The notes under the pieces are model-generated. The model was given only the letters and a program-made list of their open reading frames with translations, was not told the DNA's origin and ran no database searches. The translations under genes and the position numbers were made by a program. Shown one piece after another: positions 25,063-40,200 of a stretch of 59,815 bases of DNA; the first letter of the stretch is position 1; each line of letters starts with the position of its first letter. The DNA is from Mycobacterium asiaticum (GTDB lineage: Bacteria > Actinomycetota > Actinomycetes > Mycobacteriales > Mycobacteriaceae), in NCBI RefSeq assembly GCF_001673365.1, contig NZ_LZLS01000040.1, forward strand, positions 1 through 59,815, read 5' to 3'.

Positions 25063-26691
<1,629 letters not shown>

Positions 26692-26784: not shown

Positions 26785-27756
26785 TCAGTCATCGGCTGTC
26801 GAGGAGTCTGGCACGTTCGGATCCCACGGCTGTGGCGCTAACAGTCGCGCCGGCCAACGACCGGATCGTATGAGTTCAGCAATTTCCTCGCGCAGCACCT
26901 CGCCGATCTTCGCAGTAAACTCGCGCGGCAACTCCAAGCGTGCCGTCGCGGCCACTCCCACTTGTTGTTTGAGGACGGGGTTGCATGGGGCGCAGCGCAA
27001 GCGGCCGATAGACACGTCGTGTCCACATGCGGATAGCGGCAGCACACCGTACGCAGTGCCTGCTGCAATGAGTGACTTGGTTACCGCTATGGAGTCGGTG
27101 GACGTCCGGTAGCCGATTTTGACTTTAGTTCGCAGAGCAGCGTTTTCGAGAATTGCTCCGATGCCGGTGGGAGAATGCGGAATCACTAGTGGCCAGTTTG
27201 TGAGTTCTTCGAAGTCGACGGGCTTGTCGGGTTGCAGAGGTGATTGCCCGCCGCCCACGACGACCAGCTCTTCTTCAAGAAGCGCGCGATAGAACACCCT
27301 GTCGTCGGGAACAGGGTTGATCAGTGCGACGTCGACGGTTCCCCTCAGCATGGCTTCGACGAGATGGTCAGTGCTGCCGACCGTTACGGAGAAGACCGCG
27401 TTTGGAAACGCTGCGCTAAGGCTGCCGATCAGCGGGGCGGCGAGTAGGTCGACGGCCGTCTCGGGTAAGCCAAGCAACATGTTGCGCTTGAGCCGTGCCA
27501 ACGGCGACGCCGCATACTTCACGGCCAAGTCCAGCTGACGCAACGGCGCCGCAGTCGATGCGCGCAGGCGTTCGCCTGCATCTGTCAACTCGACCCCGCG
27601 ACGCGTTCGCCGGAACAATTCGACGCCGAGGTCGGCTTCGAGCATCTGCAGCTGACGACTCAATGCGGGCTGGGCAATGCCAAGCATCTCCGCCGCGCGG
27701 GTGATCGACCCCTCTTCCGCGATACGTAAGAAGTACTTCAGCCGATGCGTGTCCAT
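26785..27756 (-). CDS. LysR-family transcriptional regulator
   Basis: A 323-residue LTTR. The N-terminal winged HTH (MDTHRLKYFLRIAEEGSITR, then AAEMLGIAQPALSRQLQMLE) covers residues 1-60. The substrate-binding domain is of the periplasmic-binding fold (GSTDHLVEAMLRGTVDVALI, VIPHSPTGIGAILENA). I start it at ATG 27756; a longer GTG/ATG extension to 27807 has no family similarity and would run into the regulatory region. It is divergent from the SDR/sulfotransferase operon starting at 27872 and is the obvious candidate to control it. Its effector would be a substrate or intermediate of that pathway (inference). Confidence 0.88.
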   Translation of the reverse strand: MDTHRLKYFLRIAEEGSITRAAEMLGIAQPALSRQLQMLEADLGVELFRRTRRGVELTDAGERLRASTAAPLRQLDLAVKYAASPLARLKRNMLLGLPETAVDLLAAPLIGSLSAAFPNAVFSVTVGSTDHLVEAMLRGTVDVALINPVPDDRVFYRALLEEELVVVGGGQSPLQPDKPVDFEELTNWPLVIPHSPTGIGAILENAALRTKVKIGYRTSTDSIAVTKSLIAAGTAYGVLPLSACGHDVSIGRLRCAPCNPVLKQQVGVAATARLELPREFTAKIGEVLREEIAELIRSGRWPARLLAPQPWDPNVPDSSTADD

Positions 27757-27768
27757 ATGCTTCGACGT

Positions 27769-27814
27769 ATACCAGCCATCGAAAAAAGGCATGACTGAAC
27801 GCCGCAATTGGTAT
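27769..27814. promoter_or_regulatory. Candidate LysR-binding inverted repeats in divergent intergenic region
   Basis: ATACCA (27769-27774) and TGGTAT (27809-27814) form inverted arms 34 nt apart, and the right arm lies in a local palindrome GGTATTACC (27811-27819). The region is the only shared upstream sequence of the LysR gene and the SDR operon. The arms fit the general LTTR pattern of A/T-rich dyads, but no T-N11-A core is decisive. Confidence 0.35.
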
Positions 27815-27871
27815 TACCGCCCCTGCAGGCCCCGGCCATATCGTCGCCATCGAACCCTGTGAAGGAGCGCC

Positions 27872-28744
27872 ATGACTGTCGACGACGCCGAGGCCGTTGC
27901 CGCACTGAACCTCGATAAGTTGCCGACCCATATTGTCGGCAAACGCGTAACAGAGTTGATGGACCTGACCGGGAAGAAGGCGTTTTGCACCGGCGCTGGC
28001 GGCGATGGCTTGGGGCACGCGATCGCCAACCGGTTGGCTGGGTCCGGTGCCGACATGGCGCTGGTTGGACGAACACTGGAGCCGTTGCAGCGCCGCGCCG
28101 AAGAGATCGCGCAGCGGTGGAATGTGAACACGGTGCCAGTACAGGCTGACATGTCGAATTGGGACCAGATACACAACGCAGTCGCTGAAGCGCACGACAA
28201 GCTCGGCGGGTTGGACATCATGATCAACAACCCGGTCATGGTCGCGGCGGGGCCATTCGAGTCGCAGACCAAAGCCGACATCGACCTCACTGTGTTGGGC
28301 AGTTTGACCATGATGATGTACGGCGCTCATGCCGCGTTGGAGTACCTGCTGCCGCAGGGGTCGGGGACCATCATCAATATCGGCTCTGTCGGTGGTCGCA
28401 TTCAACAGCGCGGACTGGTCGCCTATAACGCGTGCAAAGCCGGAGTCATCGGATTCACCCGCAATCTGGCTCACGAGGTGGCATTACGCGGCGTGAATGT
28501 GTTCTGCGTAGCGCCGGGCATCATGATCTAAGAACAGATGAAGCAGTATCTCTATGATCCGCAGACTCCGGCGCATTACGCCGGTCGAGGCGCGATCTTA
28601 GAAGCGATCACCACCCAGGTCCAGTTGGGCCGGGCATCGCTGCCGGAAGAGGCCGCCAACATGGTCGCCTTCTTGGCTTCCGAAGCAGCCAGTTACATGT
28701 GCGGACAAACTATCGACGTCGCCGGCGGACAATGGATGGGCTGA
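27872..28744 (+). pseudogene. SDR oxidoreductase split by an in-frame TAA (possible pseudogene or two-piece gene)
   Basis: A 290-codon short-chain dehydrogenase frame interrupted by TAA at 28529-28531 after residue 219. Upstream part: cofactor loop CTGAGGDGLGHAIA, VPVQADMSNWD, catalytic Ser in NIGSVGG, YNACK (Tyr/Lys pair), and VFCVAPGIMI just before the stop. The same frame resumes directly with EQMKQYLYDPQTPAHYAG and keeps the normal SDR end FLASEAASYMCGQTIDVAGGQWMG. A single base change (for example TCA or CAA to TAA) explains it. The second half has its own ATG at 28538, 6 nt after the stop, so re-initiation could yield a two-chain protein. The catalytic residues all lie in the first part. 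A good ribosome-binding site (GAAGGAG) precedes 27872. Confidence 0.8.
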
Positions 28745-28747
28745 AAC

Positions 28748-29899
28748 ATGCTCTCGCTGAATGAGATACAGGACACCGCGGTCGCTCAAACCGGCCTGAG
28801 CGACTTCGGTGACCCGTCCTATCAAGAGGGCCTGACCGTACTGCTGACGGCACTGAATGACGAGGCTCGGCTGAACTCTCGCGGTGACGCATTCATCACC
28901 CAGCGCATCGTGGGCTATCTGGCGCAGCGTCTGCAGGTTGAGGACTGGTACCGGCGCCACCCCGAGATCGAGGACGTGCCCATCGAGGCGCCGCTGATCG
29001 GGCTCGGTCTGCCTCGCACGGGTTCGACGGCACTGTCCATGCTGCTCGCCCAGGATCCCGAGGTGCGTTATCTGCGGAGATGGGAGTCCGTGCAGCCTTG
29101 TCCGCCGCCGTCCACTGTGCAGGGCATCGACCCACGGATCCCTCCAGACAAAGGCGAGATGATCGGTACGCGATACCACGTGCCGGGCGATACGCACGGC
29201 CCGATGGAGTGCCACGAGCTGATGGCGTTGAGTTTTGCTTCCCACATCTTCCAGTCGTTCGCCCAGGTGCCGTCCTACTCTCGGTGGCTGGTCGAGGACG
29301 CCGACCTGACACCGACACTGCGCTACCAGCGCCGCGTGATGAAGCTGCTGCAGTGGGGCGAGGCTGCCCGTACCTGGCGACTGAAATGCCCCTCACACGT
29401 GTTGTGGCTTGATGCGCTCGACTCGGTCTTCCCCGACGCCCGCTACGTGATGACTCACCGAGACCCCGCCGACGTGATCCTGTCGGTGGCCGAGTTGTAC
29501 GCCGACATCATCGGGTCGTTCACCGACAACATCGATCGGCCCTACATCGGCCGTCTGAACATCGAGCATTGGTCACTAGGAATGCGACGAGCCCTCGAAT
29601 TCCGTAGTGCTGGCGCCGACAACCGGTTCTACGACATCGACTTTCGCGCGATGCAGGCCGATCCCATCGGAGAGGTCAGCGGACTGTACGAGTGGCTCGG
29701 GGACGCGTTGACCGATGAGTTCACCGCCCGCATGCACAGCTGGTGGGAGCAGGCCGCCGCCGAACGTGAACCGAGCCACTGCGCCGACCCCGCGGAGTTC
29801 GGCATCAACCTCGACCATGTGCGTCCGCTCTTTGCGGACTACGCCGATGCTGCTGTCCGGTGGACAACGCACAACCCAATTGAAAGGCGGACGAACTGA
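28748..29899 (+). CDS. Sulfotransferase-family protein
   Basis: A 383-residue PAPS-dependent sulfotransferase-like protein. The 5'-phosphosulfate loop is GLPRTGSTALS (residues 87-97) and the 3'-phosphate-binding motif lies around THRDPADVILS (residues 236-246). A hydrophobic acceptor-pocket region lies between, and WRLKCPSHVLWLDAL has the Lys-Cys-Pro-Ser-His pattern seen in bacterial Sulfotransfer_3-type proteins. The substrate is unknown; sterol, phenol or other hydrophobic alcohols are plausible given the neighbouring dehydrogenases. It starts 3 nt after the interrupted SDR and overlaps the next gene by one base (TGATGG). Confidence 0.88.
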   Translation: MLSLNEIQDTAVAQTGLSDFGDPSYQEGLTVLLTALNDEARLNSRGDAFITQRIVGYLAQRLQVEDWYRRHPEIEDVPIEAPLIGLGLPRTGSTALSMLLAQDPEVRYLRRWESVQPCPPPSTVQGIDPRIPPDKGEMIGTRYHVPGDTHGPMECHELMALSFASHIFQSFAQVPSYSRWLVEDADLTPTLRYQRRVMKLLQWGEAARTWRLKCPSHVLWLDALDSVFPDARYVMTHRDPADVILSVAELYADIIGSFTDNIDRPYIGRLNIEHWSLGMRRALEFRSAGADNRFYDIDFRAMQADPIGEVSGLYEWLGDALTDEFTARMHSWWEQAAAEREPSHCADPAEFGINLDHVRPLFADYADAAVRWTTHNPIERRTN

Positions 29900-30966
29900 T
29901 GGCGGTCGACCTGACCGGCGGCATAGATCCGACTCGCGAGCACGTGTTCGACCATCGCCCCGACAACCCGGAAATGCGCGACTCAGTGAGCTTCTGGACT
30001 GTCGACGACCGCGGCGAGGTGGGACTGCCGCGCATCGGTATCGAGGCGGTCGCCGCGAACTGGGACGCTCACGACATCCAGGTCAATCTCGCCTACCCCG
30101 ACGGCCGGGTGTATCGACTACGCACTAATGGCCCTTCGATGCCCGCAACAGGACCCGATGGCAAGCCCACGATACTGGGCGCCGGGGGGCTCGCCTTCCG
30201 CTGCATCGAGCCATTCTCGGTATGGACGATGACCTTCAAAGGCAAGGCGCTGCAAACCTCTTCGGAAGATCTGATCGCGGGACGCAAGGAAGGTCCAATG
30301 GTCGACGTCGAATTCGATGTCGAGGCGACGATGGCTGTTCCGCCCTGGGTCCAAGGAAGCTTGCACTCCGATGCAGGTGAGCAACTCAAAACCTCAATTG
30401 AGGGCGGCCTAATGGGCGGCCCGCGCTACGAGCAGCTTTACACCGCAACAGGATCGGTCACCATCGACGGCGGCGCACGTAAAGCGATTACCGGCAGCGG
30501 ATTGCGGATTCGCCGCCAAGGTGTGCGCAAACTCGGCGGCTTCTGGGGCCACAGCTGGCAGTCGGCGGTGTTTCCCAGCGGCAAAGCATTTGGATACATC
30601 GCCTACCCGCCTCGACCCGATGGTCAACCCACCTTTAACGAGGGCTACCTGTTCACCGGGGACGGTCCACTAATCCCAGCGCGTGTCATCGAGGCGCCAT
30701 GGCTGACCAAGCTGCAGGCGCTGGGGGAGGACGTATCGATGGTTCTCGAAACCGCCGACGGGACAACACGTATCGAAGGAGAAACAGTCTTCTCCGCTCA
30801 CGACATCCACCACGACGACGACATGTATTCCATGCATGCACTGAAAAAGGAGATGCCCTCCTTCCCCGCGCTTCAGCAGGCGGGCGTGCGCTACCGATGG
30901 GACGGCGAAGAGACGTACGGCATGCTCGAGCGATCAAATCCACTCGACAAGATCAAGCGTGGTTAG
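29899..30966 (+). CDS. Unrecognised conserved protein, possibly AttH/lipocalin-like beta protein
   Basis: A 355-residue soluble protein. I do not recognise a named enzyme. It is strongly beta-rich, with repeated short strands and several conserved-looking tryptophans (SVSFWTVDD, PFSVWTMTFKG, GGFWGHSWQSAVF) and a late HDIHHDDDMYSMH histidine/aspartate cluster. The layout recalls AttH/CrtC-like double-lipocalin proteins found beside sulfotransferases and SDRs in catabolic clusters (a family guess, uncertain). It has no signal peptide. It is translationally linked to the sulfotransferase (1-bp overlap), which suggests both act on the same hydrophobic substrate. Confidence 0.75.
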   Translation: MAVDLTGGIDPTREHVFDHRPDNPEMRDSVSFWTVDDRGEVGLPRIGIEAVAANWDAHDIQVNLAYPDGRVYRLRTNGPSMPATGPDGKPTILGAGGLAFRCIEPFSVWTMTFKGKALQTSSEDLIAGRKEGPMVDVEFDVEATMAVPPWVQGSLHSDAGEQLKTSIEGGLMGGPRYEQLYTATGSVTIDGGARKAITGSGLRIRRQGVRKLGGFWGHSWQSAVFPSGKAFGYIAYPPRPDGQPTFNEGYLFTGDGPLIPARVIEAPWLTKLQALGEDVSMVLETADGTTRIEGETVFSAHDIHHDDDMYSMHALKKEMPSFPALQQAGVRYRWDGEETYGMLERSNPLDKIKRG

Positions 30967-30970
30967 GGCG

Positions 30971-31795
30971 GTGGGCCAAGATCTATCGGGCAAGGTGGCG
31001 CTTGTCACGGGAGCCGCGCGGGGACAAGGCCGGGCACATGCGCAAAGGCTCAGTGCCGAGGGCGCTGACATCATTGCCCTCGACATCGCCGGGCCCCTTC
31101 CCGCGAGTGTTCGCTACGCCTCGTCAACGCCCGACGACCTCGCGGAAACTGCGCGTCTGGTCGAAGCGAACGGCCGACGGGTCGTGCTGGCTGCCAACGA
31201 TATTCGCGATCTCGACTCACTCGTCGCGGCCGTCGACCGGGCCGTCACGCAATTGGGTCGCCTCGACATAATCGTTGCCAACGCCGGGATCTGTACGCCC
31301 GCGCCATGGGATCAAATTACTAAAGAGGCCTTTCACGAAACCATCGAGACGAACGTGACGGGCACCTGGAACACCGTCATGGCCGGCGCTCCGCACATCG
31401 TCCGCGGTGGGCAAGGCGGTTCGATCATTCTCATCGGATCCGCGGCCGGGGTGAAGATGCAGGCGTTCATGATTCATTACACGGCAAGCAAGCACGCGAT
31501 CACTGGTATGGCACGTGGTTTCGCAGCTGAACTCGGTATGCACAACATCCGCGTGAACAGTTTGCACCCTGGTTCGGTCGCCAGCCCTATGGTGACCACC
31601 GGAGGCTTACGTGAGGCACTCATGGAGGCGCGTGAGACCAATCCTCACCTTGCAAACCTCCACACGCCGCTGCTACCGCAGGGCATCGCACGCCCGGAAG
31701 ACATCGCCGACGCGGTGGCCTGGCTGGCATCGGACCAGTCGAAGTTTGTTACGGCGTCTGCGATTTCAGTTGATATCGGCGTCGCAAATTGCTGA
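30971..31795 (+). CDS. Mycofactocin-coupled-type SDR oxidoreductase
   Basis: A 274-residue short-chain dehydrogenase. The cofactor loop reads VTGAARGQGRAHA, with the Arg-Gly-Gln-Gly-Arg signature and about 50-residue insert (DLAETARLVEANGRRVV) typical of the mycofactocin-coupled subfamily, which holds a non-exchangeable nicotinamide reoxidised by the redox peptide mycofactocin. VANAGI, the catalytic Ser in LIGSAAG, and YTASK are present. GTG 30971 (GQDLSGKVALVTG) is preferred; GTG 30959 would overlap the upstream gene. A secondary alcohol, possibly a steroid or terpenol, is a likely substrate (inference). Confidence 0.87.
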   Translation: MGQDLSGKVALVTGAARGQGRAHAQRLSAEGADIIALDIAGPLPASVRYASSTPDDLAETARLVEANGRRVVLAANDIRDLDSLVAAVDRAVTQLGRLDIIVANAGICTPAPWDQITKEAFHETIETNVTGTWNTVMAGAPHIVRGGQGGSIILIGSAAGVKMQAFMIHYTASKHAITGMARGFAAELGMHNIRVNSLHPGSVASPMVTTGGLREALMEARETNPHLANLHTPLLPQGIARPEDIADAVAWLASDQSKFVTASAISVDIGVANC

Positions 31796-31827
31796 TCGAG
31801 CCGCCACACTGTGACTGAAGGAGATCC

Positions 31828-32601
31828 ATGCGCGGCCTAGCCAATAAGACGTTCATCGTCGCCGGTGGCGCCACCGGTATCGGAGCTGGAACAGCGCGAC
31901 GTTTGGCCGAAGAAGGTGCAAACGTCGTCATCGGAGACATCAACATAGTTGGCGCCACTCACACTGCCGAGGCGCTCAACGCCGCCGGTGGTCGCGCCAT
32001 CGCGGTCGAATTCGACTTAGCGGACGAAGCCTCCGTGAACCAGTTAGTGGACAAGACAATCGTCGAATTCGACTCTCTGAAGGGCCTATTCAACGTCGGC
32101 GCAGACTTGTCTGCCGAAATCAACGGCAGCGACTTCACCGTGCTCGACACGAGTATCGATATCTGGCGACGCACCCTAGAGGTCAACTTGCTCGGCTATG
32201 TCCGAACCATCCGGGCGGTGCTGCCACACCTGATCGAGCAGGGAGCCGGCAGCATCGTCAACACCTCATCGGGTGGATCGCTGGGCACCGGAGACCCGAT
32301 GCACGTCGCGTACAACGCCTCCAAGGCCGCCGTCAACCAGTTAACCCGCCATGTCGCAAATAATTACGGCAAGGACGGTGTGAGAAGCAACTGCGTAATG
32401 CCGGGCCTGGTGTGGGGCGAAACGCAAGAACGCGCCGGCCTTCATGTTTTGCAGGAGATGTTCGTGGTCGCGGCTAAGACTACCCGCGTGGGTCAAGCTT
32501 CCGACCTCGCTGGGATAACCGCGTTTCTTTTGTCTGACGAGGCCGAGTGGATCAACGGTCAATGTTGGTACATAGGCGGCGCGGCACATATGCGCCAGTA
32601 G
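31828..32601 (+). CDS. Short-chain dehydrogenase/reductase
   Basis: A 257-residue classical SDR. Cofactor motif AGGATGIGAGTAR, acidic Asp after strand 2 (VVIGDIN, suggesting NAD preference), catalytic Ser in VNTSSGGS, YNASKAAVN with Tyr and Lys. The usual NNAG motif is replaced by FNVGAD. The C terminus is EWINGQCWYIGGAAH. It has a clear ribosome-binding site (GAAGGAG) and follows the mycofactocin-type SDR by 32 nt. Its third-position base use is visibly more A/T-rich than the flanking backbone genes, in keeping with acquisition by transfer. Confidence 0.87.
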   Translation: MRGLANKTFIVAGGATGIGAGTARRLAEEGANVVIGDINIVGATHTAEALNAAGGRAIAVEFDLADEASVNQLVDKTIVEFDSLKGLFNVGADLSAEINGSDFTVLDTSIDIWRRTLEVNLLGYVRTIRAVLPHLIEQGAGSIVNTSSGGSLGTGDPMHVAYNASKAAVNQLTRHVANNYGKDGVRSNCVMPGLVWGETQERAGLHVLQEMFVVAAKTTRVGQASDLAGITAFLLSDEAEWINGQCWYIGGAAHMRQ

Positions 32602-32667
32602 ATCGCACAAGTCGGCAGCGACGATCTGGCACCTTCCTCGGCGTCGTCCAGGGGCTACTCTCACGCC

Positions 32668-34209
32668 ATGGACCGCATCTTGCAGGCGGCGTGGGACCGT
32701 CACGGCGCGAAATACTCATGGGCACTTGCCGTGGTCGTTCTTGTGCTCGCCTGCCCAATCTTCTTCTTGTTGTCGTTCGTCATTGTCGCCGTTGAGAATT
32801 CGAGCCGATTCGTCGAGGCCACCGGCGTCACTACAGTCGCCGTCCTAGCGTTCGCGATTCTGCTCGGTGCTCCCAGCCACGGCGTATGGCGGCAGTTCGA
32901 ACGCTGGGCGGCCGGTGCAGAGGTTGATCGCTTCAAGACGTTGGAGGCCACCTACGTCTTGGCGCGCAAACTGCCGGCTCGGTTGGTTAGCGTCGGTGCC
33001 GTTACGGCGGCCGCCCTGTCGATCGCGGTGGGTATGGTCGCCGGAGCTTCCCCATCACGGCTTATTCAGTACGCGGTGGTGGGCGCCACGATTCAGGGTC
33101 CTTGCCAGCTGATTGGGGTGCACAGTCTGGTCGAGGCGATGATGCGCCCGGTGCGAATATCTTTGGTCGATCACACCGGAATCGGGGATTCGCTGCCCCG
33201 TGCCCACCCAACATTCGCCACGTGGTCGAAGGTGTCCATGCTCGGCGTTTCGTTGGCGTTCGCTGTCGAAAGCGCAATGCTGTCAGCGGTTTTCGACGAG
33301 GCGAGCCAGGAGCCCATCTTGTGGGTGGTGATCGGTGGTGTGCTGACATTGGTCATCGGCGTGCCGATAACGGTCGGCGCTGCCTTTGCTCCGTCGCTTC
33401 GGCCGATCCGGGATCTTGCCGAGGGCACCCAACGAGTCGCGGCCGGGGACTACAACGTGCGATTGCCGGTAGTTCAGGATGACGACCTCGGAGCCTTGGC
33501 GGCGTCATTCAACCGCATGCAGGCGGGTTTGGCTGAGAGGCAACGACTTCAGGCCGCATTCGGCACGTATGTCGACCCGGTCCTGGCGGCGCGGCTGCTT
33601 GAGCAGGGTGACGACGTGTTCAGCGGTGAGCGTCGAGAGGTGACGGTGATGTTCATCGATATCCGTGACTTCACACCGTTTGCTGAGACCAATTCCCCTG
33701 AAGATACCGTGGCTCGGCTCAACGCATTGTTCGAGATCGTGGTGCCCGCAGTCGTCAACGCCGGTGGGCACGTCAACAAGTTCCTCGGCGACGGTGCCCT
33801 GGCGGTTTTTGGCGCCCCGAACGATCTAGCCGATCATGCGGATGCCGCGGTGGGCGCGGCGTTGTCGATTCATCGGCTCGTCGCCGACCGATTCGCCGGC
33901 GAGCTTCGAATCGGCATCGGCATCAATACCGGTGTGGTGATCGCGGGCACCATAGGTGGCGGAAGCAAGCTTGAGTTCACGTTGATCGGCGACACCGTCA
34001 ACGTGGCCGCGCGCGTCGAGCAGCTCACCAAGAACACTGGTGACGCAGTCCTGCTCACTGGCCACACCGTCGACGCACTGACATCGCGACCGTCCGCACT
34101 CACCGACCGGGGATCGCACGCCTTGAAGGGCAAGTCAGCCGAGACGCAGGTCTTCGGACTTGACCCGACAGGGCTGCAATTCAGCACTGAAAATGGCACA
34201 CATGGATAA
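32668..34209 (+). CDS. Membrane-bound class III adenylate cyclase with HAMP domain
   Basis: A 513-residue protein with six predicted membrane helices (about residues 18-42, 54-73, 106-127, 134-154, 188-208, 217-241), a HAMP linker (RPIRDLAEGTQRVAAGDYNV and following, about 242-295) and a C-terminal class III cyclase domain (about 315-500). Cyclase residues: first metal Asp331 in MFIDIRDF, second metal Asp in NKFLGDG, adenine-specifying Lys of the same motif, and TLIGDTVNVAARVE with the partner Asp and the transition-state Asn/Arg. All key positions look intact, so a functional homodimeric cAMP synthase is expected. This six-helix/HAMP layout is that of the Rv1318c-Rv1320c group. It overlaps the RidA-like gene by 17 bp. 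Confidence 0.9.
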   Translation: MDRILQAAWDRHGAKYSWALAVVVLVLACPIFFLLSFVIVAVENSSRFVEATGVTTVAVLAFAILLGAPSHGVWRQFERWAAGAEVDRFKTLEATYVLARKLPARLVSVGAVTAAALSIAVGMVAGASPSRLIQYAVVGATIQGPCQLIGVHSLVEAMMRPVRISLVDHTGIGDSLPRAHPTFATWSKVSMLGVSLAFAVESAMLSAVFDEASQEPILWVVIGGVLTLVIGVPITVGAAFAPSLRPIRDLAEGTQRVAAGDYNVRLPVVQDDDLGALAASFNRMQAGLAERQRLQAAFGTYVDPVLAARLLEQGDDVFSGERREVTVMFIDIRDFTPFAETNSPEDTVARLNALFEIVVPAVVNAGGHVNKFLGDGALAVFGAPNDLADHADAAVGAALSIHRLVADRFAGELRIGIGINTGVVIAGTIGGGSKLEFTLIGDTVNVAARVEQLTKNTGDAVLLTGHTVDALTSRPSALTDRGSHALKGKSAETQVFGLDPTGLQFSTENGTHG

Positions 34210-34624
34210 GCCGATCTTTTTTGTCACTCCTGGCTATGGGAAACGCCAGCTGCGGGACTTTCACTACTCACAAGCCGTTCGGTGCGGCAACCGGGTAGAG
34301 ACCGCCGGTCAAGGAGGGTGGGACGACGACTGGTGCTATCCGGAGGCAGTCCACGACGAAGTCATTCAGGCCTTCGACAACGTCGAACGGACGTTGGCAA
34401 CGGCCGGAGCATCCTGGCTGCAAGTGATAACCGTGCACTCCTACCATGTGCCGGGCTCAGACGGCCGGATCGGGCCTGAGCACCTTGACACCATGGTCGA
34501 ACAGTTGCGCCTACGTACGGGTGATCGCGCACCGTTGTGGACATGCATCGGTGTCGCCGCGCTGGCGGGTCCAAAGATGCGCGTGGAGATTCAAGTCGCT
34601 GCGATCGTTGAGAACGAAAACTGA
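34193..34624 (+). CDS. RidA/YjgF-family protein
   Basis: A roughly 143-residue Rid-family protein. Family members deaminate reactive enamine/imine intermediates or act in degradative pathways. It has the expected HYSQAVRCGNRVETAGQGG near the N terminus, the helix EVIQAFDNVERTLATAGASWLQVITVHSYHV (only partly quoted elsewhere), and APLWTCIGVAALAGPKMRVEIQVAAI. The Arg that binds substrate carboxylates in archetypal RidA (xRx near residue 105) is replaced here by Lys-Met-Arg, so the activity may differ. The ATG at 34193 or 34202 is the start; both overlap the cyclase gene. Confidence 0.82.
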   Translation: MAHMDKPIFFVTPGYGKRQLRDFHYSQAVRCGNRVETAGQGGWDDDWCYPEAVHDEVIQAFDNVERTLATAGASWLQVITVHSYHVPGSDGRIGPEHLDTMVEQLRLRTGDRAPLWTCIGVAALAGPKMRVEIQVAAIVENEN

Positions 34625-39810: not shown

Positions 39811-40119
39811 TTACGCCGAGCGCCGAATCCCGCGGTTGCGTCCGATCGAGCCCTTGAGCAGCATGTCGCGTTCGGCCTCCGACAGGCCACCCCACACTCC
39901 GTAGGGCTCGCCTACGTCCAATGCATGGGTGCGGCACTCGTCGATCACCGGGCAGCTCCGGCACATCTCCTTGGCGCGCTGTTCGCGTTGCATGCGCGCG
40001 CGTCCGCGTTCACCGTCGGGGTGGAAGAACATCGACGAGTCGACACCGCGGCACAATCCCTGCAACTGCCAGTTCCACATGTCGGCGTTGGGTCCAGGTA
40101 GCTCTTCCGGCTGTGGCAT
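39811..40119 (-). CDS. whiB3: Redox-sensing transcriptional regulator WhiB3
   Basis: A 4Fe-4S Wbl protein that binds SigA, senses redox state and NO, and controls lipid and virulence genes in mycobacteria. 102 residues from ATG 40119, preceded by GAGAGGATC. The frame extends further upstream without conservation. Cluster ligands are Cys23, Cys53, Cys56 and Cys62 (GLCRG and CRSCPVIDEC). The Wbl turn GVWGG and the basic DNA-binding tail GRNRGIRRSA follow. Sequence matches Rv3416 closely as recalled. An unusually long A/T-rich region lies upstream. Confidence 0.96.
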   Translation of the reverse strand: MPQPEELPGPNADMWNWQLQGLCRGVDSSMFFHPDGERGRARMQREQRAKEMCRSCPVIDECRTHALDVGEPYGVWGGLSEAERDMLLKGSIGRNRGIRRSA

Positions 40120-40200
40120 TGCTGATCCTCTCTGCACGGCACACCTGAAGCAGGCTGGCGGACGGGGCGAGTTGTGCAACTGAATTGGCGGTGGCGTCAT

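Follow-up and report, generated by a model that had tools for sequence, protein, structure and literature searches.

The stretch of DNA analyzed here (the window) comprises 59,815 nucleotides of Mycobacterium asiaticum on contig NZ_LZLS01000040.1 (C40) of a 5.89-Mb genome (G000; L-, G-, and C-numbers are our labels for loci or stretches, genomes, and contigs, respectively). About 13.1 kb of DNA intervenes between groEL1, recognized by a Cpn60 match and ending at position 26691, and whiB3 (39811 to 40200), two genes that we take to be adjacent in strain H37Rv. The segment from 26785 to 32601 consists of a single LysR-type regulator gene opposite a single gene run, which encodes a short-chain dehydrogenase/reductase (SDR1), a sulfotransferase (SULT), a beta protein (DUF), a mycofactocin-type SDR (SDRm), and a further SDR (SDR3). 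A first-pass annotation had described some 13 kb of extra DNA, a tight and partly overlapping run of these genes, an interruption of the first SDR, and a LysR gene facing the operon across a 115-nt control region, and all of this was borne out. SULT and DUF form a unit that is conserved yet patchy in its distribution, and we give an even chance to its being an activated dehydratase, in which sulfation of an alcohol is followed by elimination of the sulfate.

Thirty-seven named loci were fetched with DUF as the query and are the basis of all locus counts given here. A simple gene caller often chose antisense frames in the island, so the counts are based on tblastn and hidden Markov model (HMM) matches. 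The order LysR-SDR1-SULT-DUF-SDRm-SDR3, which the first-pass annotation had proposed to seek in other genomes, was found in 15 of the 37 loci; four have it without SDRm, two have LysR-SULT-DUF only, and 12 have SULT-DUF alone. SULT and DUF are adjacent in 33 of the 37, ranging from mycobacteria to Williamsia and Streptomyces, and in the window the stop codon of SULT overlaps the start codon of DUF (TGATG at 29897 to 29901). Two of the four loci lacking the pair are contigs that begin inside DUF; SDR3 is adjacent in 19 of the 37 loci and on these two contigs. A LysR homologue is divergent to the operon in 21 loci, namely, the 15 full ones, the four without SDRm, and the two with LysR-SULT-DUF. 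In the window, SDR1 is broken by an in-frame TAA (28529 to 28531), after which the reading frame is open from 28532 to a TGA at 28742 to 28744. Because SDR1 is uninterrupted in all 20 related loci that have it, the break appears to be peculiar, among the loci compared, to the window genome, where the unit may be partly disabled as a result.

DUF is present in 5 of 37 genomes of the genus, the window genome included, in 4 of 396 genomes of a phylum sample that also includes the window genome (five candidates scored per genome), and in 2 of 72,556 records of a plasmid collection. A WhiB3-like gene lies near five of the 37 loci, one of which (L030) is also near groEL1; this spot has thus acquired SULT and DUF in further species as well.

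The control region contains a near-perfect inverted repeat, CAGYCAT-N11-ATGACTG, which 18 of 20 control regions (those of the window and 19 loci) match exactly, with one mismatch in L022 and two in L001. In L035, where SDR1 is present and LysR absent, the sequence is at five mismatches, i.e., without the box. With up to two mismatches allowed, the box is a single site in the window, where 0.48 matches are expected by chance. A second element, AATYGGTATTACC, always stands 33 bases from the box, start to start, in all 20 control regions, with one mismatch in L001, and is probably an activation site or part of the promoter. The regulator has the HTH_1 and substrate domains, the divergent gene, and the T-N11-A box of its class, and the box is a putative LysR operator. 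The open frame of the regulator gene extends to a TTG at 27807, and the HTH starts right after the ATG at 27756. The synteny and the conserved box uphold the earlier proposal of one LysR-controlled unit, and the module, its regulation, and the coupling of SULT to DUF are well supported.

Table 1. Features of the LysR-controlled segment and of the genes next to it (positions in the window)
Feature	Position	Strand	Basis or remark
LysR-type regulator	26785..27756	-	HTH_1 E 1.4e-24; LysR_substrate E 3.4e-28
Control region LysR/SDR1	27757-27871		115 nt
LysR box	27773..27797		CAGCCAT-N11-ATGACTG, near-perfect inverted repeat (T-N11-A)
Second conserved element	27806..27818		AATTGGTATTACC; constant offset from LysR box
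SDR1, first piece	27872..28531	+	adh_short E 1e-42
SULT (Sulfotransfer_3), predicted PAPS dependent	28748..29899	+	PF13469 134.6 bits, cut-off 27
DUF, DUF7064-like	29899..30966	+	Predicted 25-phosphosteroid lyase/AttH fold; proposed sulfate-ester lyase
SDRm, mycofactocin-coupled SDR (subfamily 1)	30959..31795	+	TIGR03971 327.2 bits, cut-off 300
SDR3	31828..32601	+	adh_short_C2 E 6.3e-49
HAMP/guanylate-cyclase (class III cyclase) gene	32668-34209		Domain matches
RidA-like frame	34160-34624		Overlaps HAMP-cyclase gene

None of the 37 loci holds a relative of the cyclase gene or of the RidA-like gene. Both had at first been counted as parts of the island and were rejected; the system therefore ends at 32601, not at 34624. 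Between 35560 and 39545, before whiB3, the window encodes an alpha/beta hydrolase, a TetR regulator, an F420-dependent luciferase-like monooxygenase (LLM) oxidoreductase, and an Abhydrolase_3 hydrolase. The G+C content is 0.60 to 0.64 over positions 27001 to 33000, versus 0.63 to 0.70 in the preceding 5 kb and 0.59 to 0.70 over the whole window.

The closest solved relatives of SULT by sequence are 2z6v and 2zq5. The 5' and 3' motifs that bind 3'-phosphoadenosine 5'-phosphosulfate (PAPS), PRTGSTAL and RDPxxVxxS, are kept in the window protein and in 29 of 29 aligned homologues (from the 33 loci with a SULT-DUF pair, four being left out), and SULT is predicted to use PAPS as its sulfate donor. 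In Streptomyces fuscichromogenes (L031) and S. cylindrosporus (L035), genes for CysD and for a CysN-adenosine 5'-phosphosulfate (APS) kinase fusion (CysNC), both above curated cut-offs, stand directly downstream of DUF; together the two proteins make PAPS. The next gene in L031 is CysQ-like, and CysQ would remove the by-product 3'-phosphoadenosine 5'-phosphate. A 10.4-kb part of a Sphingomonas paeninsulae plasmid holds two DUF relatives together with a sulfotransferase, an SDR, CysQ, CysNC, and CysD. A scan of 46 stretches other than the window, among them five that repeat a locus, found CysD with CysNC in 3. The window genome has two APS-kinase genes elsewhere (C64:48943-49398 and C112:32842-33297), in frames of 627 and 658 residues, which may be two CysNC genes. 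CysQ near DUF in L015 (from the same genome as L081) and in L020 was not counted, since it is probably a housekeeping gene in what we presume to be its usual neighborhood.

The first-pass annotation had left the beta protein unrecognized; the structural model gives it a known fold. The model of DUF is mostly beta strand, and its top solved match in Foldseek is 25-phosphosteroid lyase (25-PSL; E 1.5e-12), followed, as the next kind, by AttH (2.9e-9); by Z score, 25-PSL (23.7) is tied with AttH (23.4). We assign DUF with high confidence, on this predicted model, the fold shared by 25-PSL, AttH, and kievitone hydratase. The pericyclases CghA, Phm7, and Fsa2 also have this fold. In Sterolibacterium denitrificans, 25-PSL acts after a kinase and expels phosphate to leave an alkene, according to the published accounts (PMC8449060, PMC7411048, PMC11061730); its solved structures include 9fzn, 9g2i, and 9g4c. 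A fold prediction of DUF from the single sequence was discarded (predicted local distance difference test, 34).

By sequence, DUF stands apart. It scores 18.5 bits against Pfam DUF7064, below the gathering cut-off of 24.7, and the label PF23212 is carried by 14 of the 120 relatives listed for the DUF homologue of L034. Solved structures searched with the DUF sequence gave no meaningful match. DUF has neither significant similarity to 25-PSL nor the SRDRSWG motif with its Asp, a residue that was changed to Asn in the product complex 9g4c and that probably has a catalytic role in 25-PSL; as tested, DUF appears not to be a member of that family. Alignment of 96 DUF sequences revealed 40 invariant positions, among them eight Arg, four Glu, one Asp, one His, and six Trp. 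The invariant Arg include Arg203 and Arg206 (the latter in 96/96), and the His-x-Trp pair His218/Trp220 is invariant too (96/96). His-Ser-Trp at 218 to 220 was considered as the counterpart of the 25-PSL motif and dropped when a relative, L093, gave another register.

L093 comes from another actinomycete and is 27% identical to DUF over 362 columns (E 2e-18). It overlaps a gene for a kinase of the aminoglycoside phosphotransferase (APH) type and adjoins a cytochrome P450 gene. The window genome itself encodes a homologue of 25-PSL (E 4e-76 to 9fzn) that overlaps an APH kinase gene (L085 on C176; 4545 to 5663 and 5660 to 6778, - strand), and close homologues of it (80 to 93%), many of them mycobacterial, fill all 120 matches listed, so that the kinase/lyase pair may also be at work in aerobic actinomycetes. 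A third case, L084 on C130 (4416 to 6428), is one 670-residue protein that combines an ecdysteroid-kinase-like part with DUF7065 and DUF7064, beside a carboxylesterase gene, and is a candidate for a natural kinase-lyase fusion. Taken together, these cases indicate that proteins of this kind can have a kinase as a partner, be joined to one in a single chain, or accompany a sulfotransferase.

The other sulfotransferases of the window genome also have partners. There are 11 Sulfotransfer_3 matches, nine of which are full genes. All nine of these lie beside a partner, which is DUF1214-like in six cases, an alkylsulfatase-like metallo-beta-lactamase in two, and DUF in one; the two without a partner are short matches on the 3.3-kb contig C157. 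The six DUF1214-like partners are all that a search of the genome found, made with a custom profile (A2) that counted five of its own seeds among the six matches; PF06742 alone retrieved one gene, below cut-off. When five of these partners were first tested against PF06742, three were above cut-off, one was below, and one (L042) gave no match and was placed in the group for its BLAST similarity to the rest. Of the three Alkyl_sulf_dimr genes in the genome, two are sulfotransferase partners (at L039 on C220 and L045 on C219, in the same run as the sulfotransferase genes). A DUF-type HMM run over the eight other sulfotransferase neighborhoods and the C157 contig found no DUF.

Three other complete genomes gave a similar picture: 12 of the 13 sulfotransferases examined there (out of 15 matches, the below-cut-off L065 and L066 being left out) have a partner, DUF1214-like in 11 cases, once with one gene in between, and alkylsulfatase-like in one, with none at L071. 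Genome G002 has no Sulfotransfer_3 gene. Because a pair may have been duplicated as a whole, the counts are not independent events. In a sulfotransferase tree of 33 rows, with one gene entered twice, the DUF-type genes form one clade (100/100) with a DUF1214-type gene as its neighbor (86/94); several joins involve long branches. Partner labels change four times, the minimum possible being three, and each partner type is largely bound to its clade; repeated swapping of partners is thus not shown by the tree. An alkylsulfatase-like partner fits a sulfate that is added in order to be removed, and is hard to understand if a sulfated compound is the goal.

Of the 19 loci with LysR, SDR1, SULT, DUF, and SDR3, 15 also have SDRm. 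In the window, SDRm scores above the TIGR03971 cut-off, and the window genome encodes a mycofactocin maturase (TIGR03962, 663.9 bits, on C58), in line with the earlier label of a mycofactocin-type SDR. The best solved relative of SDR3 is PtmO8 (E 2.9e-49), presumably from platensimycin biosynthesis, and its sub-threshold family matches include hydroxysteroid dehydrogenases; from this kinship, polycyclic alcohols are no more than a fair guess as substrates. Related clusters occur on plasmids. That of Mycolicibacterium madagascariense, on pJCM13574 (typed mobilizable; L087, 3015 to 15038), has the order SULT-SDR-DUF together with two P450s, a ferredoxin, a mycofactocin SDR, and several SDRs. Both this cluster and that of Sphingomonas carry P450 and aldehyde dehydrogenase genes, the latter also acyl-CoA dehydrogenase and CoA transferase genes, a gene content that suggests that the plasmid clusters are catabolic. 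The pathway for sulfated or hydrophobic alcohols proposed in the first-pass annotation stands in part: hydrophobic alcohols are plausible as substrates, and the evidence leans away from a sulfated product, toward sulfate as a transient leaving group.

The adjacency of SULT and DUF, their overlapping codons, the CysD/CysNC neighbors, the fold shared with 25-PSL, the kinase-paired relative, and the pattern of partners lead us to read the pair as an activated dehydratase. SULT would move sulfate from PAPS to the hydroxyl group of a hydrophobic alcohol, and DUF would act on the resulting ester by elimination, expelling sulfate to form a double bond. Overall, this would amount to a dehydration driven by energy, in which PAPS and sulfate take the roles that ATP and phosphate have in the kinase/25-PSL pair. 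The SDRs would oxidize or reduce neighboring carbons before or after this step, one of them via mycofactocin, and LysR would switch the operon on via its box when the substrate or an intermediate is present. A steroid or terpenoid alcohol would be the substrate, and the use would be catabolic rather than biosynthetic.

Several observations weigh against this reading. No CysD or CysNC genes were found in the mycobacterial stretches that were scanned, among them the window; two of the 37 loci (L025 and L034) have DUF without SULT; and SDR1 is interrupted in the very genome under study. We know of no chemistry for the DUF1214-like partners. The DUF relative L093 shows no sequence match to 25-PSL or to the 25-PSL homologue, a profile comparison (hhalign) of the DUF family with the 25-PSL homologue family gave 0.4% probability (E 0.15), and a search of solved chains with the 96-row DUF profile returned no 25-PSL and no meaningful match. 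Pericyclases and hydratases match the DUF fold at Z scores of 21 to 23, with AttH tied, so that the fold alone cannot name the reaction. Finally, the Asp of 25-PSL falls on Ile204 of DUF (Ile in 94/96), in a register in which RIRRQG (203 to 208) of DUF stands where L093 has RDHSSG by alignment and RDHSSG is equated with RDRSWG by motif, the insignificant hhalign alignment giving the same register. The base or acid in DUF must then be another residue, for which the invariant His218, Glu248, and Glu178 are candidates.

A rather unlikely but serious alternative is that a sulfated lipid, terpenoid, or signal is the end product of the cluster. DUF would then be a hydratase, cyclase, or pericyclase that acts ahead of sulfation, and the SDRs would tailor the skeleton. 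Several known mycobacterial sulfotransferases make sulfated lipids, and the fold of DUF is common to the pericyclases and kievitone hydratase. The His-x-Trp pair of DUF also resembles His239/Trp241, which the report on the carotenoid 1,2-hydratase CrtC describes as an essential pair (PMC4717167). Against this, the alkylsulfatase-like partners at two sulfotransferases of the window genome fit sulfate removal better, one DUF relative is paired with a kinase, and the related plasmid clusters look catabolic. We consider it distinctly improbable that DUF is no enzyme but a lipocalin-like carrier, handing an insoluble substrate over to the sulfotransferase, as its mostly beta AttH-group fold, the tight coupling of the two genes, and the missing 25-PSL Asp would allow: its invariant positions are more polar than a plain hydrophobic pocket requires, the fold relatives listed are mostly named as enzymes, and L034 has DUF without SULT. 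A loose set of acquired and now decaying genes with no shared pathway, to which the lower G+C content, the patchy presence, and the interrupted SDR1 would point, is very improbable and already contradicted by the synteny, since gene order and LysR box are conserved across many species and SDR1 is intact in every relative that has it.

The activated-dehydratase reading of the window cluster can be extended, more tentatively, to mycobacterial Sulfotransfer_3 enzymes as a whole. These would use sulfate as a disposable leaving group in catabolism, not for sulfated products, each with a dedicated partner from one of three unrelated families (25-PSL-like, DUF1214-like, or alkylsulfatase-like) that breaks the fresh sulfate ester, so that a hydroxyl group on a steroid or other greasy alcohol is removed, moved, or inverted; the window cluster would be the 25-PSL-like version, a sulfotransferase/sulfo-lyase dehydratase. 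Mycobacteria have many sulfotransferases whose substrates are unassigned and which are commonly taken to produce sulfated lipids or signals. If sulfate serves here as a leaving group, they are genes of degradation, the fixed kind of neighbor at nearly every sulfotransferase examined is explained, and protein families without a known function or substrate acquire a testable job. One lyase fold would then be driven either by ATP via a kinase or by PAPS via a sulfotransferase, and it would offer enzymes for dehydrating unactivated alcohols under mild conditions.

A literature search, with subscription papers outside its scope, retrieved no report of a SULT-DUF system, and its parts aimed at a sulfotransferase linked to elimination or to DUF1214, and at DUF7064 or DUF7065, gave no paper. 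Known systems resemble the pair in part. The sulfotransferase-SDR-DUF1214-like trio of L042 and L067-L068 has a sulfotransferase of the same family beside an SDR and a partner, but the partner is DUF1214-like and the regulator is another one; by gene order, this trio is likely Rv3529c-Rv3531c of the cholesterol region. A KstR motif lies upstream of Rv3531c, according to the published analysis (PMC1995591).

AttH (2ich) and kievitone hydratase (7a0q, 7a0t) have the predicted DUF fold in common, and the likeness of DUF to CrtC rests on the His-x-Trp motif. CrtC and kievitone hydratase add water to alkenes; unlike SULT-DUF, such hydratases work without a group-transfer partner. In the curacin A sulfotransferase-thioesterase and the cyanobacterial olefin synthase, sulfate from PAPS activates the substrate and is lost as the double bond forms, as has been described (PMC3903477). 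Unlike SULT and DUF, these domains sit in a polyketide synthase, act on beta-hydroxyacyl chains with decarboxylation, and have a thioesterase partner. The 25-hydroxysteroid kinase/25-PSL pair of anaerobic cholesterol degraders is alike in combining a group-transfer enzyme with a lyase of the DUF fold, with activation of an alcohol and then elimination to an alkene proposed for SULT-DUF. The window cluster differs in having a sulfotransferase and PAPS for the kinase and ATP, in the apparent Ile in place of the SRDRSWG Asp, and in the lack of significant sequence similarity. In Sterolibacterium, moreover, no lyase candidate is reported to have been seen near the kinase gene (PMC8449060), whereas SULT and DUF are neighbors here. 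Elimination by SULT-DUF would be a new form of group-transfer-driven dehydration, the sulfate counterpart of the phosphate route.

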